A stretch of DNA of 64,000 nucleotides from Ignavibacterium sp. (GTDB taxonomy: Bacteria; Zixibacteria; MSB-5A5; GN15; PGXB01): assembly GCA_020724775.1 (NCBI GenBank), contig DYGG01000011.1:1-64000 (forward strand), read 5' to 3'. A program made the position numbers and the translations under genes. Shown piece by piece: positions 678 to 11,319 of the stretch. Every line of letters starts with the position of its first letter. Within the stretch, counting starts at the first letter, position 1. The notes beneath the pieces are model-generated. The model worked only from the letters and a program-made list of their open reading frames with translations, made no database searches and had not been told where the DNA came from.

Positions 678-2432
678 ATGATATATAAGAGATTAACTCC
701 AATGCTAAGAAGAAGAATAGGCGATATTCTCCTTGAAAAAGGGCTGATTACGTCCGCTCAACTGGCGGATGCCCTCAAGGAACAGGAAAAAACAGGCCGG
801 AAAATCGGTCAGTTGCTGGTCGAGAAGGGGGTTATCACGGAAGACCAGTTAATTGAAGCGGTTTCGGAGCGACTGCAGATACCAAAAATATCGCTGGCGT
901 CGCTGGTGATCGACCCGATGGTGGTCGGGATGGTGCCGGTGGAGATCGCTCGCCGCTATTCCCTGATGCCGATTTTCAAAATCGGCAAGATTATCACCGT
1001 TGCCATGGCCGAGCCGCTCAATATTATCGCCATCGATGAACTGAAATATACCACCAAGTGCGACATCAAGCGGGTAATTGCGTCTCATTCGGAAATTAAC
1101 GCGGCGATTGACCAATACTATTCGGTCGCTGATTCGATGAGCGGCGTGATTGGCTCCTATCCCGGAGCCAAAGTGGATGAGAAGACAGCACAACTTTCGG
1201 AATCGGTATCGGAATCTGAGCGGGAAGCGCCGGTTGTCAAACTGGTAAATTTGATAATCACGCAGGCGGTCAAAGACAAGGCCTCGGATATCCATATCGA
1301 GCCGGACGAAAGCCAACTGCGGATAAGGTACCGCATTAACGGCGTTATGCGGGAGGAAGCCTCCCCCCCGAAATCGTTGCAGGCGGAAATCATATCCCGC
1401 ATCAAGGTCGCCGCCAATATGGATGTTTCCGAAAAGCGACTTCCCCAGGATGGACGTCTCATGATGAAAGTTGACGGCAGCAATATTGACCTTCGTATAT
1501 CGACCCTGCCCACCATCCATGGCGAAAAGGTAGTGATTCGTATTCTCGACCGCCGGATCTTGAATTTCGGAATGGAGCAACTCGGTTTCTCGCCCAGTCT
1601 TCTGGAAGCCTGGAAAAGGGTGATACGAAAGAAAGAAGGACTGGTCCTCCTGACAGGACCGACCTCCAGCGGCAAGACCACTACCCTTTACTCGGCGCTT
1701 CAGGAAGTCAATTCTATCGAAAAGAATATCATCACCATAGAAGACCCGGTGGAGTACTCGATTCCTCTGGTGAATCAGGTGCAGACCAATGAGCGCGCCG
1801 GACTGACCTTTGCGTCGATTCTGCGATATATCCTTCGCCAGAACCCGGATATCATTATGATTGGAGAGATACGGGATGTGGAAACGGCCAATATGGCGAT
1901 TCGTTCGGCTTTGACAGGGCATCTGGTGCTTTCGACGCTTCATACCAATGATGCGCCGAGCAGTATCAATCGTCTCATTGATATGGGAATCGAGAATTAC
2001 CTGGTGGCATCATCACTCAAAGGGATACTGGCGCAGAGGCTTCTGAGAACCAACTGCCCCCATTGTTCCGAAGAATACAAACCGCAGGATGTCCATATCC
2101 GCTTTTCGCATCTGGACAGTTCTACTGCCCGGATTCGTTTCATGAAAGGGGCCGGATGCACCCGCTGCCGCATGACCGGCTATATGGGGCAGGTAGGGAT
2201 TTACGAATTGATTGAAGTTGATGACACTATCTCTGAAATGATAATCAGCGGCGCTTCGGAAATCCAGATTCGCAATTACGCCGGCACGCGACACTACAAG
2301 CCTCTGTTTCAGGCGGGGCTGGAAAAGGTTGCCGAAGGCAAAGTCTGTCTGGAGGAACTGCTGCGAGTGACATCGATAGGAGAGCTGCCCCGTCCGGCGG
2401 CGCCCCTGGAGAAAATACTGATAAATGCCTGA
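678..2432 (+). CDS. pilB: Type IV pilus assembly / type II secretion ATPase PilB
   Basis: Cytoplasmic hexameric motor that powers pilin polymerisation. An N-terminal MshEN-type domain (residues ~8-75, IGDILLEKGLIT), a domain found in several c-di-GMP-binding PilB proteins, precedes the GspE/PilB ATPase core. Walker A GPTSSGKTTT lies near residues 327-336, followed by the IEDPVEY Asp box and the Walker B region NPDIIMIGEIRD. Two CxxC pairs (CPHC near 458, CTRC near 493) form the usual zinc site. The length of 584 aa is typical. Its stop overlaps the pilC start by 8 nt. Start choice is uncertain: ATG 678 has no clear ribosome binding site and overlaps a TATAAT at 674-679, so ATG 702 (MLRRRIGD) may be the true start. 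Confidence 0.93.
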   Translation: MIYKRLTPMLRRRIGDILLEKGLITSAQLADALKEQEKTGRKIGQLLVEKGVITEDQLIEAVSERLQIPKISLASLVIDPMVVGMVPVEIARRYSLMPIFKIGKIITVAMAEPLNIIAIDELKYTTKCDIKRVIASHSEINAAIDQYYSVADSMSGVIGSYPGAKVDEKTAQLSESVSESEREAPVVKLVNLIITQAVKDKASDIHIEPDESQLRIRYRINGVMREEASPPKSLQAEIISRIKVAANMDVSEKRLPQDGRLMMKVDGSNIDLRISTLPTIHGEKVVIRILDRRILNFGMEQLGFSPSLLEAWKRVIRKKEGLVLLTGPTSSGKTTTLYSALQEVNSIEKNIITIEDPVEYSIPLVNQVQTNERAGLTFASILRYILRQNPDIIMIGEIRDVETANMAIRSALTGHLVLSTLHTNDAPSSINRLIDMGIENYLVASSLKGILAQRLLRTNCPHCSEEYKPQDVHIRFSHLDSSTARIRFMKGAGCTRCRMTGYMGQVGIYELIEVDDTISEMIISGASEIQIRNYAGTRHYKPLFQAGLEKVAEGKVCLEELLRVTSIGELPRPAAPLEKILINA

Positions 2433-3639
2433 GACATTTTCATATTCGGCGCGCACTGCTGAGGGGGAGAAACGAAGCGGAACGGTTCAAGCCGAAAATC
2501 CCGAGAGAGTTGCCGCCATTCTGGAAGAGATGCGGCTGATTCCGATTGAAATCAAGCCGCAGAAGAAAGATATCCGCCCGGTTCTTTTCGGTTTTCTGAG
2601 AAGCCGTCAATACGAAGACCTGATTTTATTCACCCGGAATTTATCGACCCTGTATAAAGCCGGAATTCCACTCTTACGCGCGCTCGATACGATTAAGATC
2701 GGTCCGGCTAACGGATATTTCAACCGGACCATCGAACGGATTCGAACTGATGTCCAGTCGGGACGTTCCCTGTCGGATGCTATGGGGGAGCATCCGGAAC
2801 TATTCAGCAAAATCTATATCGCTTCGATAGCGGCCGGGGAAGCCTCCGGCAAACTGGATGAGATTCTTGATTCGCTCGGTTATATGCTGGAGCGCGACCT
2901 CGATTTGAACCGTCAGATTAAATCGGCTCTCCGCTACCCGATAATTGTCGTTTGCGCCATCATTCTGGCATTTGCCGTCCTGATTACCTTTGTCATCCCC
3001 CGCTTCATCGATTTCTATTCGTCGATGGGTGCGCAACTTCCTGCCCCGACCCGCATTATTATCTGGGTACATCATATTGTCACGACATATTGGGTAGCCG
3101 TGGTAGCCATTCTGATAGCGGCCGCCCTGACGCTGAGAAAGATATATGCTTCGTCATCCGGCAAACTCTATTTCGATACCTGGTTTCTATCCTTGCCGGT
3201 GTTTGGCGATCTAATTGTCAAAGGGAATATCGCCCGTTTTTCATACATGTTTCATCTTCTGCTAAAAAGCGGTCTGCCTATGGTGAAATCGCTGGAGTTA
3301 CTCTCAGAAACGGTGAAGAATGCCCGTCTGACCGAAGAGATAAAAGTTCTCTCCAGTTCTTTCAAGGAGGGGCGGGAACTGGACGGGATAAAATCGAGGC
3401 TGCAATATTTTCCGGAGATGGGGCTTCAGATGATACGCATCGGGCTGGAAAGCGGCTCGATAGACAGCATGCTCTCCGAAGTCGCTTTGCATTACAACAA
3501 AGAAGTGGATTACAAATCGCGTCATCTGGCGTCGCTCGTGGAGCCTATTTTGACGGTTGTCCTGGGATTTTTTGTGCTGATAGTGGCTCTGGCGATCTTT
3601 TTGCCAATGTGGAACTTAGCCCAGATTTTCCGGGGCTGA
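2425..3639 (+). CDS. pilC: Type IV pilus inner-membrane platform protein PilC (GspF family)
   Basis: Polytopic inner-membrane protein that couples the PilB motor to pilin insertion. It has the duplicated GspF/T2SSF helical domain: one copy around residues 68-190 (FTRNLSTLYKAGIPLL) and one around 270-395 (FSYMFHLLLKSGLPM). Membrane helices fall near residues 165-190, 215-235 and 370-400. At 404 aa it has the family's normal length. The N-terminal segment (SARTAEGEKRSGTV) is the usual PilC beginning. It is translationally coupled to pilB by an 8-nt overlap, and the pilin genes follow after an 81-nt gap. Confidence 0.93.
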   Translation: MPETFSYSARTAEGEKRSGTVQAENPERVAAILEEMRLIPIEIKPQKKDIRPVLFGFLRSRQYEDLILFTRNLSTLYKAGIPLLRALDTIKIGPANGYFNRTIERIRTDVQSGRSLSDAMGEHPELFSKIYIASIAAGEASGKLDEILDSLGYMLERDLDLNRQIKSALRYPIIVVCAIILAFAVLITFVIPRFIDFYSSMGAQLPAPTRIIIWVHHIVTTYWVAVVAILIAAALTLRKIYASSSGKLYFDTWFLSLPVFGDLIVKGNIARFSYMFHLLLKSGLPMVKSLELLSETVKNARLTEEIKVLSSSFKEGRELDGIKSRLQYFPEMGLQMIRIGLESGSIDSMLSEVALHYNKEVDYKSRHLASLVEPILTVVLGFFVLIVALAIFLPMWNLAQIFRG

Positions 3640-3720: not shown

Positions 3721-4152
3721 ATGCCGTTCAAAAGACTCAGTAATGGACAGGGTTTTACCCTCATCGAACTGGTGATTATCATAGTTATCCTGGGAATTCT
3801 TGCTGCTGTGGCGATTCCGAAGTACAAAGATATCAGTTCCGAAGCAAGAGAGTCAGCCACCCGGGCCGCGCTGGGGGGACTGCGCTCAGGTATAACTATC
3901 TGGTACGCCAATCAGGCAGTGACGACCGGGACTGCGGCCTGGCCCCCCATTGATAGCCTGAGAGCCCCCGGTTCGGTAATGGAACAGTCATTACCGAAAA
4001 ATCCCTATCAGTCCGATGCCAACGCCCCTGACAGTATTGTTACCGGCGTGACCAAAGGAACCACGGTCGGCACGCGCGGAGGCTGGGCATATAACCCGAC
4101 CACCGGTGAAGTCTGGCCCAACACCTCGGTCAGCGGCGAAAACAACTGGTAG
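3721..4152 (+). CDS. Type IV pilin-like protein (likely major pilin or pseudopilin)
   Basis: 143-aa prepilin. The class III signal has the cleavage point between G11 and F12 in the motif GQG-FTLIEL, with the conserved Glu at mature position 5 (E16) and a following hydrophobic helix (VIIIVILGILAAVAIP). The C-terminal GGWAYNPTTGEVWPN is common in bacterial prepilin-like proteins. A good ribosome binding site (AGAGGAG) lies 8 nt upstream of ATG. It is the first of three pilin genes behind pilBC, and its position suggests the main subunit. The prepilin peptidase needed to process it is not in this window. Confidence 0.88.
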   Translation: MPFKRLSNGQGFTLIELVIIIVILGILAAVAIPKYKDISSEARESATRAALGGLRSGITIWYANQAVTTGTAAWPPIDSLRAPGSVMEQSLPKNPYQSDANAPDSIVTGVTKGTTVGTRGGWAYNPTTGEVWPNTSVSGENNW

Positions 4153-4159
4153 AAAAATA

Positions 4160-4624
4160 ATGAAGGATGGATTGATTGCAGAATGGAAACGGCGGTCCGG
4201 CGGCTTTACTCTGGTGGAACTGGTTATAGTCATAGTCGTCCTCGGTATAGTCGCCGGCGTGGTCATTCCGCGGATTGGACCGTTAACGGAGCAATCCAAA
4301 GTGAACGCCACCCGTGAAGAAATGCTGCGAATCAAGACAGCCATCAAAGGCGACCCGAGTCTGATTTCCGGCTCGGAGTATGTCAATCGCGGCTTTGAAG
4401 GGGATGTCGGCTTTGCGCCGTCGCAACTTCACGACCTGGTGCGCAAACCTGACAGCATTTCGGCTTATGACAAATTTACCCGCCTGGGCTGGAATGGTCC
4501 CTATCTCGACAGTTCCGGACAGAATTACCTTTATGACGCCTGGGGACTGGCTTATTCCTACAATCCAGCCGCGCGGACGATAACCGCTACCGGAGCCGAC
4601 CCCGATATCGTGCTCAATTTCTGA
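4160..4624 (+). CDS. Type II secretion-like pseudopilin (GspG-like)
   Basis: 154-aa prepilin, cleavage G15|F16 in SGG-FTLVEL, mature Glu5 = E20, hydrophobic helix to about residue 37. The C-terminal half has WNGPYLD and then DAWGLAYSYN, matching the D-x-W-G-x-x-Y-x-Y pattern of GspG major pseudopilins. The ATG at 4160 is chosen because it is 8 nt after the previous stop. An in-frame upstream start at 4106 would overlap the previous gene and give an unusually long leader. It is a clear paralogue of the next gene (shared ATxxEM, GDxG and DAW motifs). Confidence 0.85.
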   Translation: MKDGLIAEWKRRSGGFTLVELVIVIVVLGIVAGVVIPRIGPLTEQSKVNATREEMLRIKTAIKGDPSLISGSEYVNRGFEGDVGFAPSQLHDLVRKPDSISAYDKFTRLGWNGPYLDSSGQNYLYDAWGLAYSYNPAARTITATGADPDIVLNF

Positions 4625-4635
4625 GAGGAATGCCG

Positions 4636-5763
4636 ATGCTGAAATCTCAAAAAGGTCTGACACTCATTGAACTGGTGATGGTGATAATCATTGTTGGAAT
4701 TCTTGCCGGGGTGGCGATGAAATCTATGGACTCGGCCATTGAGACGGGCAGAATTGAAGCGACCAAGAAAGAGATGGAGATGCTGGCGCAGGCGATTGTC
4801 GGAAATCCGGCGTTGGTCAGCAACGGTTTTCGGGTTGATTTTGGATATGTCGGCGACATTGGCGCCCTCCCCCCTAATCTGGACGCTCTGGCGTTAAACC
4901 CGGGCGGATTTGGCACCTGGGACGGTCCTTATGTTGTAAATTCGTTCACTCAAGCGACGGACGATTACAAGAAAGACGCCTGGAATGCCCTCTACACCTA
5001 CAACGGACTCAATATTGTCTCCACCGGTTCCGGTAGTAATATCACCCGGCAGATTGCCGGAGCCGCATCTGACTTGACCGCGAACACGGTGCAGGGTACG
5101 GTTGTCGATGTAGAAGGGATTCCTCCGGGAGTTTATAATGTCGATGTCGATATCACCATAAATTATCCCGATGGGCTGGGGGGGATGACATCAGCCACGG
5201 TCAATCCCTCGACAAACGGCAGTTATTCTTTCAGCAATATTCCCATCGGCAACCATCAGATTATAGCGGTGAACACCACCACGGATGACACATTGTTGTC
5301 CTATGTTACGCTGCCGCCGAAATCGACCATCATAAATAATCTTCGCTTCGGTTCGGCATTGTGGGGAGCGGGAAATTCACCGAGCGCCAACGGACTGCAG
5401 TATGTCTCCGGGTCGGCGCAGTTATCCGGAGGAGATGATATCGAGTTCGATATCTTTAATAACACCGGCACGAATATAAGCATTTCCTGGCTGAAGGCAA
5501 CCTATGTTCGGAATCCGGCGGCATATTACGAGCGAATCCGCTGGGCCAACGGCACCATCGCCAACAGCACCAGTCCCCGCTACTCCTCGGGACAGCAGGT
5601 CAATTTTTCCAGTTCACGAACTATCAATGACGGCTCAACAGTCACAATAAGGTTGCAGAATTTCAACACGGCTTTAAATGGCGGAGGCTCCAGCGCCAAT
5701 ATGGCGGGAGTCTCTTTCACGGTCGTTTTTAGCGACAGTTCCACGATAAACTTCAGCCTGTAG
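4636..5763 (+). CDS. Large pseudopilin with a C-terminal Ig-like extension
   Basis: The prepilin signal QKG-LTLIEL (cleavage G7|L8, Glu5 = E12) is followed by a GspG-like core (GGFGTWDGPYVV, DAWNALYTYN). It then carries about 220 extra residues. Residues ~155-225 (VVDVEGIPPGVYNVDVDITI, PSTNGSYSFSNIPIGNHQI) resemble a carboxypeptidase-regulatory-like beta-sandwich. A Ser/Asn/Thr-rich beta domain follows to the end. ATG 4636 is preferred over 4630 because AGAGGA at 4624-4629 then sits 6 nt upstream. At 375 aa it is more than double the usual pseudopilin size. A tip, adhesin or substrate-contacting role is an inference. Confidence 0.82.
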   Translation: MLKSQKGLTLIELVMVIIIVGILAGVAMKSMDSAIETGRIEATKKEMEMLAQAIVGNPALVSNGFRVDFGYVGDIGALPPNLDALALNPGGFGTWDGPYVVNSFTQATDDYKKDAWNALYTYNGLNIVSTGSGSNITRQIAGAASDLTANTVQGTVVDVEGIPPGVYNVDVDITINYPDGLGGMTSATVNPSTNGSYSFSNIPIGNHQIIAVNTTTDDTLLSYVTLPPKSTIINNLRFGSALWGAGNSPSANGLQYVSGSAQLSGGDDIEFDIFNNTGTNISISWLKATYVRNPAAYYERIRWANGTIANSTSPRYSSGQQVNFSSSRTINDGSTVTIRLQNFNTALNGGGSSANMAGVSFTVVFSDSSTINFSL

Positions 5764-5771
5764 AAAAAGGG

Positions 5772-7367
5772 ATGACAATTCAAGCAAAAAAAGCGGCCGG
5801 CTTAATTAAGAGATTCTGCAGTCGCTACGGTTCCCTCTGCCGAGGCTCAATCCTTAAGAGGCGGTATAGTTTCGGACGGACGATTGCTATTGTTATTGAT
5901 GACCAGTCACTTCAACTGGCGGCCGCCCGACAGACCTGGCACCGCTCCCGCCTGCTGAATGTCACCAAAGCCTATATTCCATCAGCATATAGCGGGCAGG
6001 AGAAGCGGGAAAATTTTATCACATCGGAAATAATGCGCTATGTCCGCGAATACGGAGGGAAAAAAACTCGGTACATTCTTGGAATCGGCGGTCAGGAGAG
6101 CGCTATACGCTTGCTGAATTTTCCAGCGATGAACCGCCGCGAACTGGACAGCGCCATATTTTGGGAAGGTAACAAGCAGATTCCTTTCGGACTTAAAGAT
6201 TCCTACTACGGTTACCATCTGGCGGACCGATGGGAGGAAAACGGGCAATCAGAACTCAATGTAGTCCTTCTGGCAACCCCGCGAAAAGAGGTTCACCGGA
6301 GACTGGAGGAACTGAAAGCCGACATACGGATTGACGGCGCCTATCATGAACTGGAAGCGATCGGGCAGATGCTTCCTTTTCTCGATGAATATCAGCCGGG
6401 CAAGGCGTACACGCTGGTTAATATCATGAAAAATCATACGGAGATAAGTTTCTACCGTGGCGCGCGGATGGAGTTTCGGCACACCGCTTCTATCGGCTCC
6501 GACTCCCTTTCATCTCCGGGGGAAAAGGAACTGGTCTTCCAGGATTTCGCCGACGCCCTTACGGTCGAAATCCAGAATTCGCTCGATTACTATGTCGGGC
6601 AGTTTTCACAAATTCTGGCGGACAAGATACTAATTTACGGAGACCTCTGTTACTCCGAGGAACTGGTAGGGCATCTGACCCGTCACTTTGGCATGGAATT
6701 TTGTCGATTCCCGATAGATAACTGGCTGAAATCCCAACCAAAGGCGCGCGATTATGCGGAACAGATTCCGGTTTCGTTGGGGGCGGTGGCGCTGGCCGTG
6801 GCGCGTGACAGTATGGTCAATCTGCTGCCCAATGATATGCGGGAAGCGGCATCGGTCCGCAAATACTACCGGGTGGCGGTTCCTGCCGCAGCCACCCTGC
6901 TGCTGATTCTATTTGGTACGTGGCTGTCGCTGCGGCAGCATGTAGCCACAGAGCAATTTCATCTCACGGTCAGACAGAATCAACTGGAAAGGCTGAAAAG
7001 TTCCCCCTCATTTGTGATGTACAACCGGCTGAAACAGCAACTGACAGCCAATCGGCAACTGATGGAGAAACTCGATCGCGAGCCGACATTTATGAATCTC
7101 AATTTTAAGGAACTATCGCTTATCACGCCGCCGCAGATTCGACTGGACCTGCTCGATTTGCAGAACGCAGGAGACCGTCTGAGTCTGACGCTAAACGGTG
7201 AAGCCCGGTCAGCCTCAACCCCGCCGGAGGTGATTGTCGCCGAATTTGTGGCGCGATTGGAAGGCTCGCCGTTTTATAGAAATGTGGCGCTGCGGAAACA
7301 TTCCAAAAAGTCGGTTCAGGGGGCATTCTCCCTTGAGTTTCTGGTGGAGATGGATACGGTAATATGA
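5772..7367 (+). CDS. PilM-PilN fusion protein (GspL-like architecture)
   Basis: 531 aa. Residues ~35-340 are a PilM-like actin-fold domain (YILGIGGQESAIRLLNFP, LDYYVGQFSQILADKILIYG, SLGAVALAV). The chain then runs straight into MVNLLPNDMR (residues ~348-357), the conserved NLLP motif normally found at the N-terminus of PilN, where it contacts PilM. A single membrane helix (~371-388), a periplasmic coiled coil and a ferredoxin-like PilN C-domain complete it. Cytoplasmic actin fold plus helix plus periplasmic domain is the layout of GspL in type II secretion. The stop overlaps the PilO start by 4 nt. There is no frameshift or stop at the joint. Confidence 0.85.
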   Translation: MTIQAKKAAGLIKRFCSRYGSLCRGSILKRRYSFGRTIAIVIDDQSLQLAAARQTWHRSRLLNVTKAYIPSAYSGQEKRENFITSEIMRYVREYGGKKTRYILGIGGQESAIRLLNFPAMNRRELDSAIFWEGNKQIPFGLKDSYYGYHLADRWEENGQSELNVVLLATPRKEVHRRLEELKADIRIDGAYHELEAIGQMLPFLDEYQPGKAYTLVNIMKNHTEISFYRGARMEFRHTASIGSDSLSSPGEKELVFQDFADALTVEIQNSLDYYVGQFSQILADKILIYGDLCYSEELVGHLTRHFGMEFCRFPIDNWLKSQPKARDYAEQIPVSLGAVALAVARDSMVNLLPNDMREAASVRKYYRVAVPAAATLLLILFGTWLSLRQHVATEQFHLTVRQNQLERLKSSPSFVMYNRLKQQLTANRQLMEKLDREPTFMNLNFKELSLITPPQIRLDLLDLQNAGDRLSLTLNGEARSASTPPEVIVAEFVARLEGSPFYRNVALRKHSKKSVQGAFSLEFLVEMDTVI

Positions 7368-7921
7368 AAAAATTATGGCTGAAATCGACTCTGGCAACAG
7401 TGGCGCTTACGGCCGGCTGGTACCTGTTCCTAATGTCTCCTTTGAAAAATGAGGAAAACAGAGTAGCGTCCGCTCGCGCCGAGTTGGAGACAAATATTGC
7501 CGACTATGAAAAGAAACTCCTGGAGTTCCCGGAGTTCTACCGTGCCGAAAAGGAACTTCTGGAGAAGCGCAAGGTCCTGATATCCCAACTTTATTCAAAG
7601 GAAGATTTGATAAAGTTGTTCCGACGATTTGAAGAAAACGCGATGCGTTTTCGCCTTAATCTGCTGGAAATAACGCCCTCTATTGAGGAACTGCTTAAAC
7701 TGAATAAACTTTCTGAGGACGGGCAGCCGCAACAATTGAATATGATGGTTCGACTCAGCGGCGACTTTCCGGCGCTGGGCTCATTCGTGCGCACGATTGA
7801 AGAGGAAAAGTTTTACCAGGGAACCAATTTCTGCCGGGTGACCAGTGTCGGGCAGGGAGAGGCCTTTCCCGAAATGACTTTCGGATTCAAAGCGGTACTG
7901 GGCGCGCTTCGGGAGGGATGA
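7364..7921 (+). CDS. pilO: PilO-like inner-membrane alignment protein
   Basis: 185 aa. One N-terminal membrane helix (residues ~8-25, ATVALTAGWYLFLM) is followed by a coiled coil (~30-90) and a small alpha/beta domain, the plan of PilO/GspM. PilO pairs with PilN to link the cytoplasmic motor ring to the secretin. Sequence similarity is too weak for motif proof, so the call rests on size, topology and its place directly after PilMN and before PilP. It overlaps both neighbours by 4 nt (ATGA). Confidence 0.75.
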   Translation: MKKLWLKSTLATVALTAGWYLFLMSPLKNEENRVASARAELETNIADYEKKLLEFPEFYRAEKELLEKRKVLISQLYSKEDLIKLFRRFEENAMRFRLNLLEITPSIEELLKLNKLSEDGQPQQLNMMVRLSGDFPALGSFVRTIEEEKFYQGTNFCRVTSVGQGEAFPEMTFGFKAVLGALREG

Positions 7922-8358
7922 TGAATCCTAAGACGAGAAAGACTGTCATTTATTTGACGTTGGCGGCGGCGGTGATTTATGCGGCTGTCAATATGACGGA
8001 TAAATTTCGGATGGAATCGGGCGCGTCATTAGAGCCGCCGGCGCCGCCACAGCATGCGGTCGCCAAGAAGGCGGAGATGCCGATACCGATTGAAAAGTAC
8101 CGCGCCCTGGAATGGGGACGTGACCCATTTCGCAAGGATGTCTCGCCGGCAGTGACCAGCGAAAGCATTACGCCAGGATGGATTCTAAACGGGATATTGT
8201 ACGATGAAACCGACCCCAGCGCCATCATCGACGGAAAACTGGTAAAGGTCGGTGCGGACATTAACGGCGCGCGTGTTATTAATATTCAGAAGAAAGTTGT
8301 TACCCTTAATATAAACGGTAGTTTAGTCGAATTGACGCTCTCAAAGGATAAATCATGA
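7918..8358 (+). CDS. PilP/GspC-like periplasmic linker protein
   Basis: 146 aa. An N-terminal anchor helix (TVIYLTLAAAVIYAAV) is followed by the WGRDPFRKD motif typical of PilP and GspC, and by a small beta domain of the GspC homology-region type (GWILNGILYDETDPSAIIDG, VKVGADINGARV). Such proteins bridge the inner-membrane PilNO complex and the N0 domain of the secretin, which is encoded immediately downstream with a 4-nt overlap. PilP is usually a lipoprotein. This one has a membrane helix and no lipobox, which is closer to GspC. Confidence 0.72.
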   Translation: MMNPKTRKTVIYLTLAAAVIYAAVNMTDKFRMESGASLEPPAPPQHAVAKKAEMPIPIEKYRALEWGRDPFRKDVSPAVTSESITPGWILNGILYDETDPSAIIDGKLVKVGADINGARVINIQKKVVTLNINGSLVELTLSKDKS

Positions 8359-9635
8359 AAAAGATTACTCTTGTCCTCGGAATAATCTGGGCTTTGCATA
8401 TAGCGGCGCTGGGTCAGGAACTTCAATCGGGAAAAAAGATTTCGCTTCAATTTGAAAATGTCCCGATAGCCACCGTCCTGAATATGCTGGCTCAAAAATA
8501 TGATTTGAACCTGGTATTTGCCGGTGATGTAGAAAGCAAAATTTCAATCAAACTGGACAATGTCGCTCTTCAGGAAGCGCTCCGGGCGATTCTCACCGCC
8601 AACGGCTTGAATTACTATCTTATCGGCGACATCATAGTCGTCAAACCGGTGGAAACATCAGCGGTTGGAGAGACCGTACCGGCGCTGATTAAACTGGCTT
8701 ATATCTCCCCCAATGCGGCAATGAATGCTACCGCAGATTTGCTTTCACCCAAGGGTAAGATGAAAGTGGTCGAGGATGCCACTTTTGTTTCGAAAGGTCC
8801 CGGCGCCCCAAACCCGACAGAACTGGTGATAGTCGATTATCCCGACGTAGTGCAGAAAGTGACCGACTTCATCAAAGAGATGGATAAACCGGAACCGCTG
8901 GTGGCGATACAGGTGCGGATGATTGAGATGAATGTTGACGGCGAGAAAAAGACCGGCTTTAACTGGCCCACTTCACTTAACGGACGTCTGCACGGCATCG
9001 AGAACACGAGCAGCACCGGTTCCAGCGCTACCACCAATGCCACGGAAGCGCTGGGAGCGATTGATTTGCCTGATGGAAAATGGGAGTGGGGAAAACTCTC
9101 GGTGGCCGAGGTGGCGCTGGTTCTCGATTTCCTGGAAAAATCGGGCAACTCCAAATTGATTTCAGACCCGCGCATCACGACTCTTAACAATCATCAGGCG
9201 GAAATAAAAGTGGCGACCGTGGTGCCAATTCAGACGATTAATCGGTTCAGTGAAGGGGGCGCCGTTCAGGATATCGTCACTTTCCAGGATGAGGAAGTCG
9301 GTATCTCGCTTCAGGTAACTCCCCGGATAACCGACAGCAACCAGATAATGCTGGACGTCTATCCGACCGTGGCGGAAATAATCGGTTTTTCCGGTCCTGA
9401 GGGGAATCAGAAACCGATTACCTCCGAGCGCTCAATTCGGACAAAAATCACGGTCCAGAACGGCGAAACGGCGGCATTGGGCGGACTTCTCAAAGAGAGT
9501 AAGATTGAGAACGAACAGAAGGTCTTTTTCCTCGGCTCCATTCCGATTTTGGGCAATCTTTTCAAACATAAGACTGTCAAGACCAGCACCACCGATTTGT
9601 TGATACTTATAACTCCAACAGTCATTTCATATTGA
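8355..9635 (+). CDS. pilQ: Short outer-membrane secretin (PilQ/GspD family)
   Basis: 426 aa, exported (signal peptide ~1-20, cleavage near ALG-QE). Residues ~25-100 are an N0/STN-like domain (ISLQFENVPIATVLNMLAQKY), ~110-180 an N1-type domain, and ~180-426 the secretin channel (VAIQVRMIEMNV, GGLLKESKIENEQKVFFLGSIPILGNLFK). It is much shorter than most PilQ (over 600 aa): the AMIN domains are missing and only two periplasmic domains are visible. It is the last gene of the operon and is followed by a strong terminator. It would form the outer-membrane pore for the pilus or secreted substrate. Confidence 0.88.
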   Translation: MKKITLVLGIIWALHIAALGQELQSGKKISLQFENVPIATVLNMLAQKYDLNLVFAGDVESKISIKLDNVALQEALRAILTANGLNYYLIGDIIVVKPVETSAVGETVPALIKLAYISPNAAMNATADLLSPKGKMKVVEDATFVSKGPGAPNPTELVIVDYPDVVQKVTDFIKEMDKPEPLVAIQVRMIEMNVDGEKKTGFNWPTSLNGRLHGIENTSSTGSSATTNATEALGAIDLPDGKWEWGKLSVAEVALVLDFLEKSGNSKLISDPRITTLNNHQAEIKVATVVPIQTINRFSEGGAVQDIVTFQDEEVGISLQVTPRITDSNQIMLDVYPTVAEIIGFSGPEGNQKPITSERSIRTKITVQNGETAALGGLLKESKIENEQKVFFLGSIPILGNLFKHKTVKTSTTDLLILITPTVISY

Positions 9636-9858: not shown

Positions 9859-11319
9859 ATGACAAAATGGAAATTCAAAACATGGCTGTTTATAATAGCG
9901 CTGGCGCTGGTTTGCCCGGCGCTGTCGTCCCGGGGCGAATCTGAGAAGCGAAACAATATGTCGGACATAATCACCGCTCGACCTGCGGCGACTCCTTTGA
10001 CCACCGTGCGCATCGCAAGCGGTTTATCGCGACCGGTACTTGTCTGTTCGCCGCCGGGAGACAACGAGCGGCTGTTCATCCTGGAGCAATATACCGGGCT
10101 TATCAAAATCTGGCGAAACGATACGGTGCTTGCCCGTCCCTTTCTGGATATCGGCGATAGTCTGGCGACAAGCGGCAACGAGCAGGGACTTCTGGGAATG
10201 GCCTTCCACCCCGATTTTGAAACGAATCGCTATTTCTTCGTAAATTATACCAGAGTTGGCGGAGCCACCGTCATTAAGCGTTATACCGTCTCTGCCACTG
10301 ACCCGGACAGCGCCGATTTCTCAAGCGGCGTGATCATCTTGACCATCCCGCAGCCGTACAGCAACCATAATGGCGGAATGATAGCCTTTTCCCCCACAGA
10401 TGGTTACCTTTATATCGGAATGGGGGACGGCGGTTCCGGTGGCGACCCGCAAAACCGAGCGCAGGATGGCTCTTCCCTGCTGGGAAAGATGCTTCGGATA
10501 GATGTTGATGCCGGCTTTCCATACGGTATACCGCCGGATAATCCCTATGTTGATTCCGCCACGACTCAGGATGAAATCTGGGCAAAGGGGCTTCGCAATC
10601 CCTGGCGTTTCAGTTTTGACGCTCTTACCGGCGAGATGTATATCGGCGATGTCGGTCAGAATGCCTGGGAGGAGTTAAGTTATCAGCCTGCCAACAGCCC
10701 CGGGGGTGAAAATTATGGGTGGCGACTCAAAGAAGGGACGCACTGTTACAACCCCTCCACCAATTGCGATACGGAAGGGATTCTGACTGACCCTATATAT
10801 GAGTATTCGCATTCATCATCACGCTGCTCGATAACAGGCGGGTACGTATATCGCGGCTGCGCCATCCCCGACCTGCAGGGGACATATTTCTTCGCCGACT
10901 ATTGCACTTCAGAAGTATGGTCTTTTCGTTTCGATGGGACAAATATTACCGAGTTCACCAACCGGACCGCGGAGTTGGAGCCGGGAGGTGGCGTTACCAT
11001 AGACTGGATATCCTCTTTCGGGGTGGATAACCGCGGAGAACTTTACATCCTGGACCATCTGGGAGGAGAGATATTCAAAATTGTCCCGGATGGAGTCCCT
11101 TCCCTCTGTTTTTTTGAATGCGGTGATGTTGACGGTAACGGCCGGATAAATATCCTCGACATCACCTATCTCATAAATTACCTCTACAAAGGGGGAGCCG
11201 CTCCGGCATCGCTGACGGCGGCTGATGTCAACGGTTCCGGCGGGATAAATATCCTCGACATCACTTCGATAATCGCACAATTGTACAAAGGAGGACCGGC
11301 GCTCAACTGCCCGGCGTAA
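9859..11319 (+). CDS. Secreted PQQ-type sugar (glucose/sorbosone) dehydrogenase with C-terminal dockerin
   Basis: 486 aa. A signal peptide (~1-28) precedes a six-bladed propeller of the GSDH/HHIP-like family (residues ~50-415). NHNGGMIAFSP carries the usual catalytic-site His, and GMGDGGSGGDPQNRAQ and GLRNPWRFSFD are family signatures. Such enzymes oxidise sugars with PQQ, though many members have unknown substrates. Residues ~425-486 hold two dockerin type I calcium-binding repeats (GDVDGNGRINILDITYLI and DVNGSGGINILDITSII), each followed by LYKGG. The gene follows the secretin operon after a terminator and a 164-nt gap. Function is confident at family level only. Confidence 0.85.
   Translation: MTKWKFKTWLFIIALALVCPALSSRGESEKRNNMSDIITARPAATPLTTVRIASGLSRPVLVCSPPGDNERLFILEQYTGLIKIWRNDTVLARPFLDIGDSLATSGNEQGLLGMAFHPDFETNRYFFVNYTRVGGATVIKRYTVSATDPDSADFSSGVIILTIPQPYSNHNGGMIAFSPTDGYLYIGMGDGGSGGDPQNRAQDGSSLLGKMLRIDVDAGFPYGIPPDNPYVDSATTQDEIWAKGLRNPWRFSFDALTGEMYIGDVGQNAWEELSYQPANSPGGENYGWRLKEGTHCYNPSTNCDTEGILTDPIYEYSHSSSRCSITGGYVYRGCAIPDLQGTYFFADYCTSEVWSFRFDGTNITEFTNRTAELEPGGGVTIDWISSFGVDNRGELYILDHLGGEIFKIVPDGVPSLCFFECGDVDGNGRINILDITYLINYLYKGGAAPASLTAADVNGSGGINILDITSIIAQLYKGGPALNCPA

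Follow-up and report, generated by a model that had tools for sequence, protein, structure and literature searches.

Are PilM and PilN, which are separate proteins in type IVa pili, joined here in one natural polypeptide, and is that polypeptide a GspL, a step towards GspL, or a fusion with a history of its own? The question is raised by the gene at 5772-7367 (+ strand) of the window, the 64,000-nucleotide stretch of DNA analyzed here. An earlier note had read this gene as a PilM-PilN fusion with the NLLP docking segment kept inside it, and as a direct intermediate between the two architectures. The fusion is real, the NLLP linker is kept, and the protein is closer to PilM and PilN than to GspL; its place as a direct intermediate was not upheld. 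We consider it likely that the gene represents an independent, GspL-like (convergent) fusion within a type IV filament machine specific to this lineage, and that it tethers PilN to PilM, with PilN probably docked in cis.

Domain organization and conservation of the fusion

The gene encodes 531 amino acids from an ATG start in one frame without a break. The preceding pilin gene stops 8 bases ahead of this start, AAGGG lies shortly before the ATG, and the 3' end of the gene overlaps the next one by 4 bases. The N-terminal part is a PilM-like actin-fold domain (residues ~29-343; 5856-6800), identified from the Pfam PilM_2 match, profile matches to PilM in the PDB and the motif columns. It is followed by the NLLP docking motif (residues 350-353, [ND][LF]LP across the family; 6819-6830), which was placed by alignment conservation and the AF2 model and lies within MVNLLPNDMR (residues 348-357; M348 at base 6813). 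A transmembrane segment (residues ~368-387; 6873-6932), located by eye from hydrophobicity and from the DSSP of the model, is part of a long helix spanning 354-409. The chain ends in the PilN periplasmic ferredoxin-like domain (residues 441-531; 7092-7364), defined by the Pfam PilN match and the model. All of these lie on the + strand. The Pfam matches cover residues 81-245 (PilM_2, E 2.5e-7) and 445-523 (PilN, E 4.3e-6), both above the curated cut-offs. TIGR01175 (pilM) scored the protein at 47 bits, below its cut-off of 133, and phmmer with the PilN half alone returned no matches in the PDB. The protein thus has a PilN domain with NLLP ahead of the membrane helix, as in PilN. It differs from PilN in not being a separate polypeptide with a free N-terminus, since the frame is single and the internal start is not conserved.

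The fusion was matched in 58 of 60 relatives, nearly all with one open frame without a stop. Of the 133 Zixibacteria genomes covered by a profile search of the phylum, about 72 gave a near full-length fusion, a manual count in which one gene has one internal TGA (G083) and three are cut by contig ends (G043, G012, G031). Fused frames of 541-577 amino acids occur in the same operon beyond the order, in families f5, f7, f9, f15 and f17 of the class. One genome assembled as a single contig (G051) carries two fused copies approximately 400 kb apart (L016/L090; C1:630686-632179). PF11104 (PilM) matched all 30 of the fused members examined, with a best E of 4.5e-15, and PF05137 (PilN) matched 28 of them.

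Docking motif at the junction

We aligned 30 fused orthologues with identity down to 31%. P353 is invariant (30/30), L352 is present in 29/30, position 351 holds either L or F throughout (30/30), and residue 350 is N or D in 27/30. The [ND][LF]LP window averages 3.31 bits, compared with 1.68 before it, 1.43 after it and a mean of 2.19 for the protein, and ranks 25th by conservation among the 487 four-residue windows of the fusion. The docking motif is under constraint between poorly conserved flanks, which bears out the proposal that NLLP was kept as an internal linker. In more distant members of the class the motif drifts to LIP, LLP, YLP, LAP or FTP, with the proline retained. The last PilM helix (336-343 in the model) ends only about 6 residues ahead of the motif. 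Text searches for NLLP or INLLP gave no results.

An AF2 model of the fusion, built from the 30-sequence alignment, had a mean pLDDT of 81 and a pTM of 0.65. The structure prediction suggested in the earlier note came out confident across the junction (pLDDT 83 for residues 341-350 and 89 for 351-360), where residue 350 makes a beta bridge. The PilN domain of the model has the order α-β-β-α-β-β. When the model was compared with 350,542 PDB chains by Foldseek, the top match was a PilN-bound PilM, 5EOU (TM by target 0.68). This is the PilM:PilN1-12 chimera, P. aeruginosa PilM with PilN1-12 engineered onto its C-terminus. The PilM-PilN complex 2YCH followed at 0.65, and P. aeruginosa PilM without PilN gave 0.55-0.57. 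A peptide search placed MARINLLPWREE at the end of the 5EOU chain, on the PilM C-terminus, and the natural fusion therefore has the same design as the engineered chimera. Because the PilN-bound forms rank best and the natural chain shares the 5EOU design, the NLLP segment probably occupies the PilM groove in cis; occupancy is read here from the fold ranking, the single bridge residue and the pLDDT. The model also has the layout of GspL, with an actin fold, one membrane helix and a periplasmic ferredoxin fold in one chain, and GspL structures (EpsL, GspL) match it at E ~6e-8, far behind 5EOU.

Nucleotide motifs and the canonical pilus

The separate PilM proteins of Zixibacteria keep LD[VI]GA[SN]SIK, N[LI]GxDV and SGGG or AGGG (6/6 read). 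The fused family reads IDxxS, NI[KG]xxxTEIS and YGDL at the phosphate-1, phosphate-2 and adenosine motifs, respectively. At phosphate-1, variable residues take the place of the Asp, and the Gly after it has become D or E in 26/30; the phosphate-2 Gly is lost in 22/30, and YGDL stands where the canonical protein has SGGG. All three nucleotide-binding motifs expected of a PilM are thus eroded in the 30 aligned members. On the strength of these sequence changes, we infer that the fused PilM has lost ATP binding.

The genome that the window comes from also carries a canonical type IVa pilus as a separate system, with PilM, PilN and a secretin on contig C16. Further canonical parts are on contig C17, namely PilB-type and PilT-type ATPases and a PilC. 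The separate pilN, which starts MININLLPK, overlaps pilM at the latter's 3' end. Because the same genomes retain an unfused PilM with intact nucleotide motifs, genomes with both forms would offer a natural paired comparison for the role of the PilM nucleotide switch.

The operon of the fused gene

Within the limits of their contigs, around 40 loci share one gene order: ATPase, PilC, pilin 1, pilin 2, (pilin 3), PilMN, PilO-like, PilP-like and secretin. In the window, all of these genes are on the + strand. The assembly ATPase (678-2432) is of the PilB/GspE/MshE type (Pfam T2SSE, E 9e-133; MshEN, E 7e-18; NCBIfam NF053729, 72.5 bits against a cut-off of 38). At its N-terminus, MshEN and an MshE-related cyclic-di-GMP-binding domain were found well above cut-off, and because of these domains c-di-GMP control may apply to the fused machine. 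The platform protein PilC/GspF/MshG (2425-3639) matches Pfam T2SSF at E 2e-54.

Three pilins follow. Pilin 1 (3721-4152; N_methyl, E 9e-7) is the probable major pilin and the most conserved pilin among relatives (57-83%). Pilin 2 (4160-4624; N_methyl, E 4.5e-8) is a GspG-like pseudopilin with a weak T2SSG match (E 0.011). Pilin 3 (4630-5763; N_methyl, E 7e-6) is a large minor pilin of 377 amino acids, with a weak CarboxypepD_reg match after the pilin part (E 0.008, below cut-off). At its position, one locus (L114) has three pilin3-like frames of 265, 454 and 650 amino acids, and among the loci of the order that are more distant, many have no pilin 3. It is possibly a variable tip adhesin.

Downstream of the fusion, the PilO-like protein (7364-7921) has no Pfam match. 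The best PDB matches of its AF2 model are to PilO (3jc8_Oa, from the type IVa machine model 3JC8, and Pseudomonas PilO, 2rjz) and to Amuc_1100. The next gene (7918-8358) encodes a protein with an N-terminal membrane anchor, a short C-terminal HR-like domain and weak T2SSB/GspC matches, which by sequence and position appears to be PilP/GspC-like. A lipobox was found in none of its 41 orthologues. We dropped the missing lipobox as a T2SS-like trait, because the phylum's canonical operons likewise gave no lipobox PilP in the pattern search. The short, PilQ-like secretin (8355-9635; Pfam Secretin, E 3e-44, and STN) scored 215.7 bits with PilQ TIGR02515 and 187.2 with GspD, both below cut-off. No PilT, prepilin peptidase or GspK-like gene was seen within the fused operon cluster. 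Directly downstream of the secretin is a glucose/sorbosone dehydrogenase-like protein that bears a type I dockerin at its C-terminus (9859-11319). Related dockerin proteins lie near the type IV filament loci of several relatives, and some of these matches are to the dockerin alone. The protein is a candidate surface or secreted substrate.

Relation to GspL and type II secretion

The trees were built with few reference systems and have long branches. In the ATPase, PilC and secretin trees all fused operons form one group; the root of the secretin tree is weak. The fused operon stands apart from the canonical pilus as well as from the E. coli-type T2SS. The E. coli and Cupriavidus T2SS proteins (GspE, GspF) form a separate pair with full support in the ATPase and PilC trees. 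The nearest relatives of the fused system disagree between these two trees: its PilC is sister to MSHA MshG (support 99/98), and its ATPase groups with a clostridial type IV pilus ATPase without strong support. The trees give no indication that the fused operon is the stem of the T2SS. These results bear on the earlier proposal that the fusion is a direct evolutionary intermediate leading from the type IVa pilus, with separate PilM and PilN, to the T2SS with GspL. The architecture is indeed intermediate, with GspL topology, PilM/PilN sequence and eroded nucleotide motifs. The order ATPase-F-pilins-L-M-C-D is like that of the Comamonas T2SS operon, E-F-G-H-(two pilins)-K-L-M-(hypothetical)-D, and pilin 2 is GspG-like. 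We nevertheless regard direct descent as unlikely, because the fused systems form a clade of their own, which does not branch at the base of the E. coli-type T2SS and whose PilC goes with MshG, the GspL match is weak, and the PilO-like protein is closest to PilO rather than EpsM.

The operon could also be a minimal type II secretion system and the whole protein its divergent GspL, given the protein's topology, its position in the operon and the fold matches to EpsL and GspL. No subunit of the fused operon exceeded a T2SS NCBIfam cut-off; the gene order is nonetheless T2SS-like. T2SSL matched only 2 of the 30 fused members, both weakly (best E 0.032), and GspL_C matched none, whereas the positive control, E. 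coli GspL, gave 2e-84 (T2SSL) and 6e-42 (GspL_C). PilM_2, by comparison, is found in 30/30 and PilN in 28/30. The hhalign probability for the fusion was 95 with canonical PilM, 25 with a Comamonas T2SS PilN-domain protein and 7.6 with E. coli GspL. The genome of the window contains no GspL family match, and three GspL-position proteins, one each from E. coli, Comamonas and Methylomonas, were read and have no NLLP at the junction. Membership of GspL is thus rejected on the profiles; placement there would have overturned the earlier reading, and a divergent GspL seems improbable to us.

That the gene is a chimeric assembly, or yields two separately translated products from the ATG found precisely where the PilN part begins (base 6813), is almost certainly wrong: the same fusion recurs in dozens of independently assembled genomes, including single-contig ones, and at the M348 position a start codon is present in only 11/30 orthologues, none with a Shine-Dalgarno-like motif. 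The recurrence of the single-frame fusion across relatives and throughout the phylum means that the join is neither an assembly error, which the earlier note had named as grounds for abandoning its claim, nor chance.

Proposed function of the fused protein

We propose that Zixibacteria have a second type IV filament machine, specific to the lineage, and that the convergent fusion is its assembly subunit in the inner membrane, doing the work of PilM and PilN jointly, or of GspL alone. Its cytoplasmic actin-fold domain would recruit the neighbouring ATPase, and the PilN membrane helix and periplasmic domain, covalently attached to the actin fold, would pair with the neighbouring PilO. The former N-terminus of PilN, [ND][LF]LP, would sit in the PilM groove in cis, so that PilM would be held in the PilN-bound state. 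The PilM part would then no longer switch with ATP, and the loss of the nucleotide motifs fits this. The origin of the fusion would be independent of the classical GspL of the T2SS.

On balance, and with some reserve, we favor the view that these machines form a separate class in Zixibacteria, in which PilM is locked by the fused PilN docking peptide and the nucleotide switch is lost, and which repeats, independently, the step that gave rise to GspL. The fusion bears on how PilM-PilN binding and the nucleotide state of PilM control pilus assembly. From a natural protein that has the 5EOU topology, is conserved across a bacterial group and has lost its nucleotide motifs, it would seem that at least one filament machine can work with PilM permanently bound to PilN, and that fusion of the GspL type arose more than once.

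Comparison with known systems

Compared with PilM and PilN of type IVa pili (Thermus, 2YCH; P. aeruginosa, 5EOX and the chimera 5EOU), the Zixibacteria protein has both domains, NLLP, the membrane helix and an adjoining PilO in common. It differs in being one chain with three eroded nucleotide motifs, and its PilM part is somewhat shorter between the phosphate-2 and adenosine motifs. GspL, described earlier as the equivalent of PilM-PilN (PMC4471445), likewise has a cytoplasmic actin fold, one membrane helix and a periplasmic ferredoxin-like domain in one chain. It differs in lacking NLLP in the three proteins read, in its very weak sequence match and in belonging to another ATPase/platform clade. 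The MSHA pilus shares the MshG-like PilC, the MshE-type ATPase and the single-locus machine; the Aeromonas locus compared (L128) is an unannotated record taken as MSHA from its gene layout. Its PilN-domain frame (L128:2082-2918) matches Pfam PilN and not PilM.

A natural PilM-PilN fusion has already been reported in the type IV pilus operon of C. difficile (PMC6916266, citing Melville and Craig 2013), and the name PilMN is also in use (PMC6143707, PMC7057214). Our literature searches found no paper using the phrase 'PilM-PilN fusion', nothing useful on Zixibacteria pili and no experiments on the fused Zixibacteria system. The C. difficile protein, compared by description only, belongs to a monoderm type IVa pilus without a secretin, and monoderms have a different PilM-PilN interaction motif (PMC6916266, review). 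A 506-residue ORF in an Acetoanaerobium pilus operon was considered as a fused PilMN and rejected, as its product is pilin-like and contains a von Willebrand A domain (L129:13345-14862).

A tblastn search of plasmids with the fusion gave a sole match, in Candidatus Manganitrophus (Nitrospirota). Its plasmid CP114559.1 encodes a 553-residue PilM-PilN fusion annotated as pilM (L110:14506-16167). Both proteins run from a PilM domain through a membrane helix to a PilN-like region and are part of a type IV filament operon. The Manganitrophus protein differs in its apparently intact phosphate-1 motif (GIDISS), in having ALLLTPPP at the junction instead of NLLP and in lacking a Pfam PilN match, and its operon has extra genes and two GspE/PilB-type ATPases. 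PilM-PilN fusion is therefore recurrent and not new, and the Zixibacteria case is a natural variant rather than a new kind of machine. What is novel, since fusion itself recurs, is a conserved combination: NLLP stays, the nucleotide motifs are eroded, and the machine is specific to the lineage and accompanied by a canonical one.
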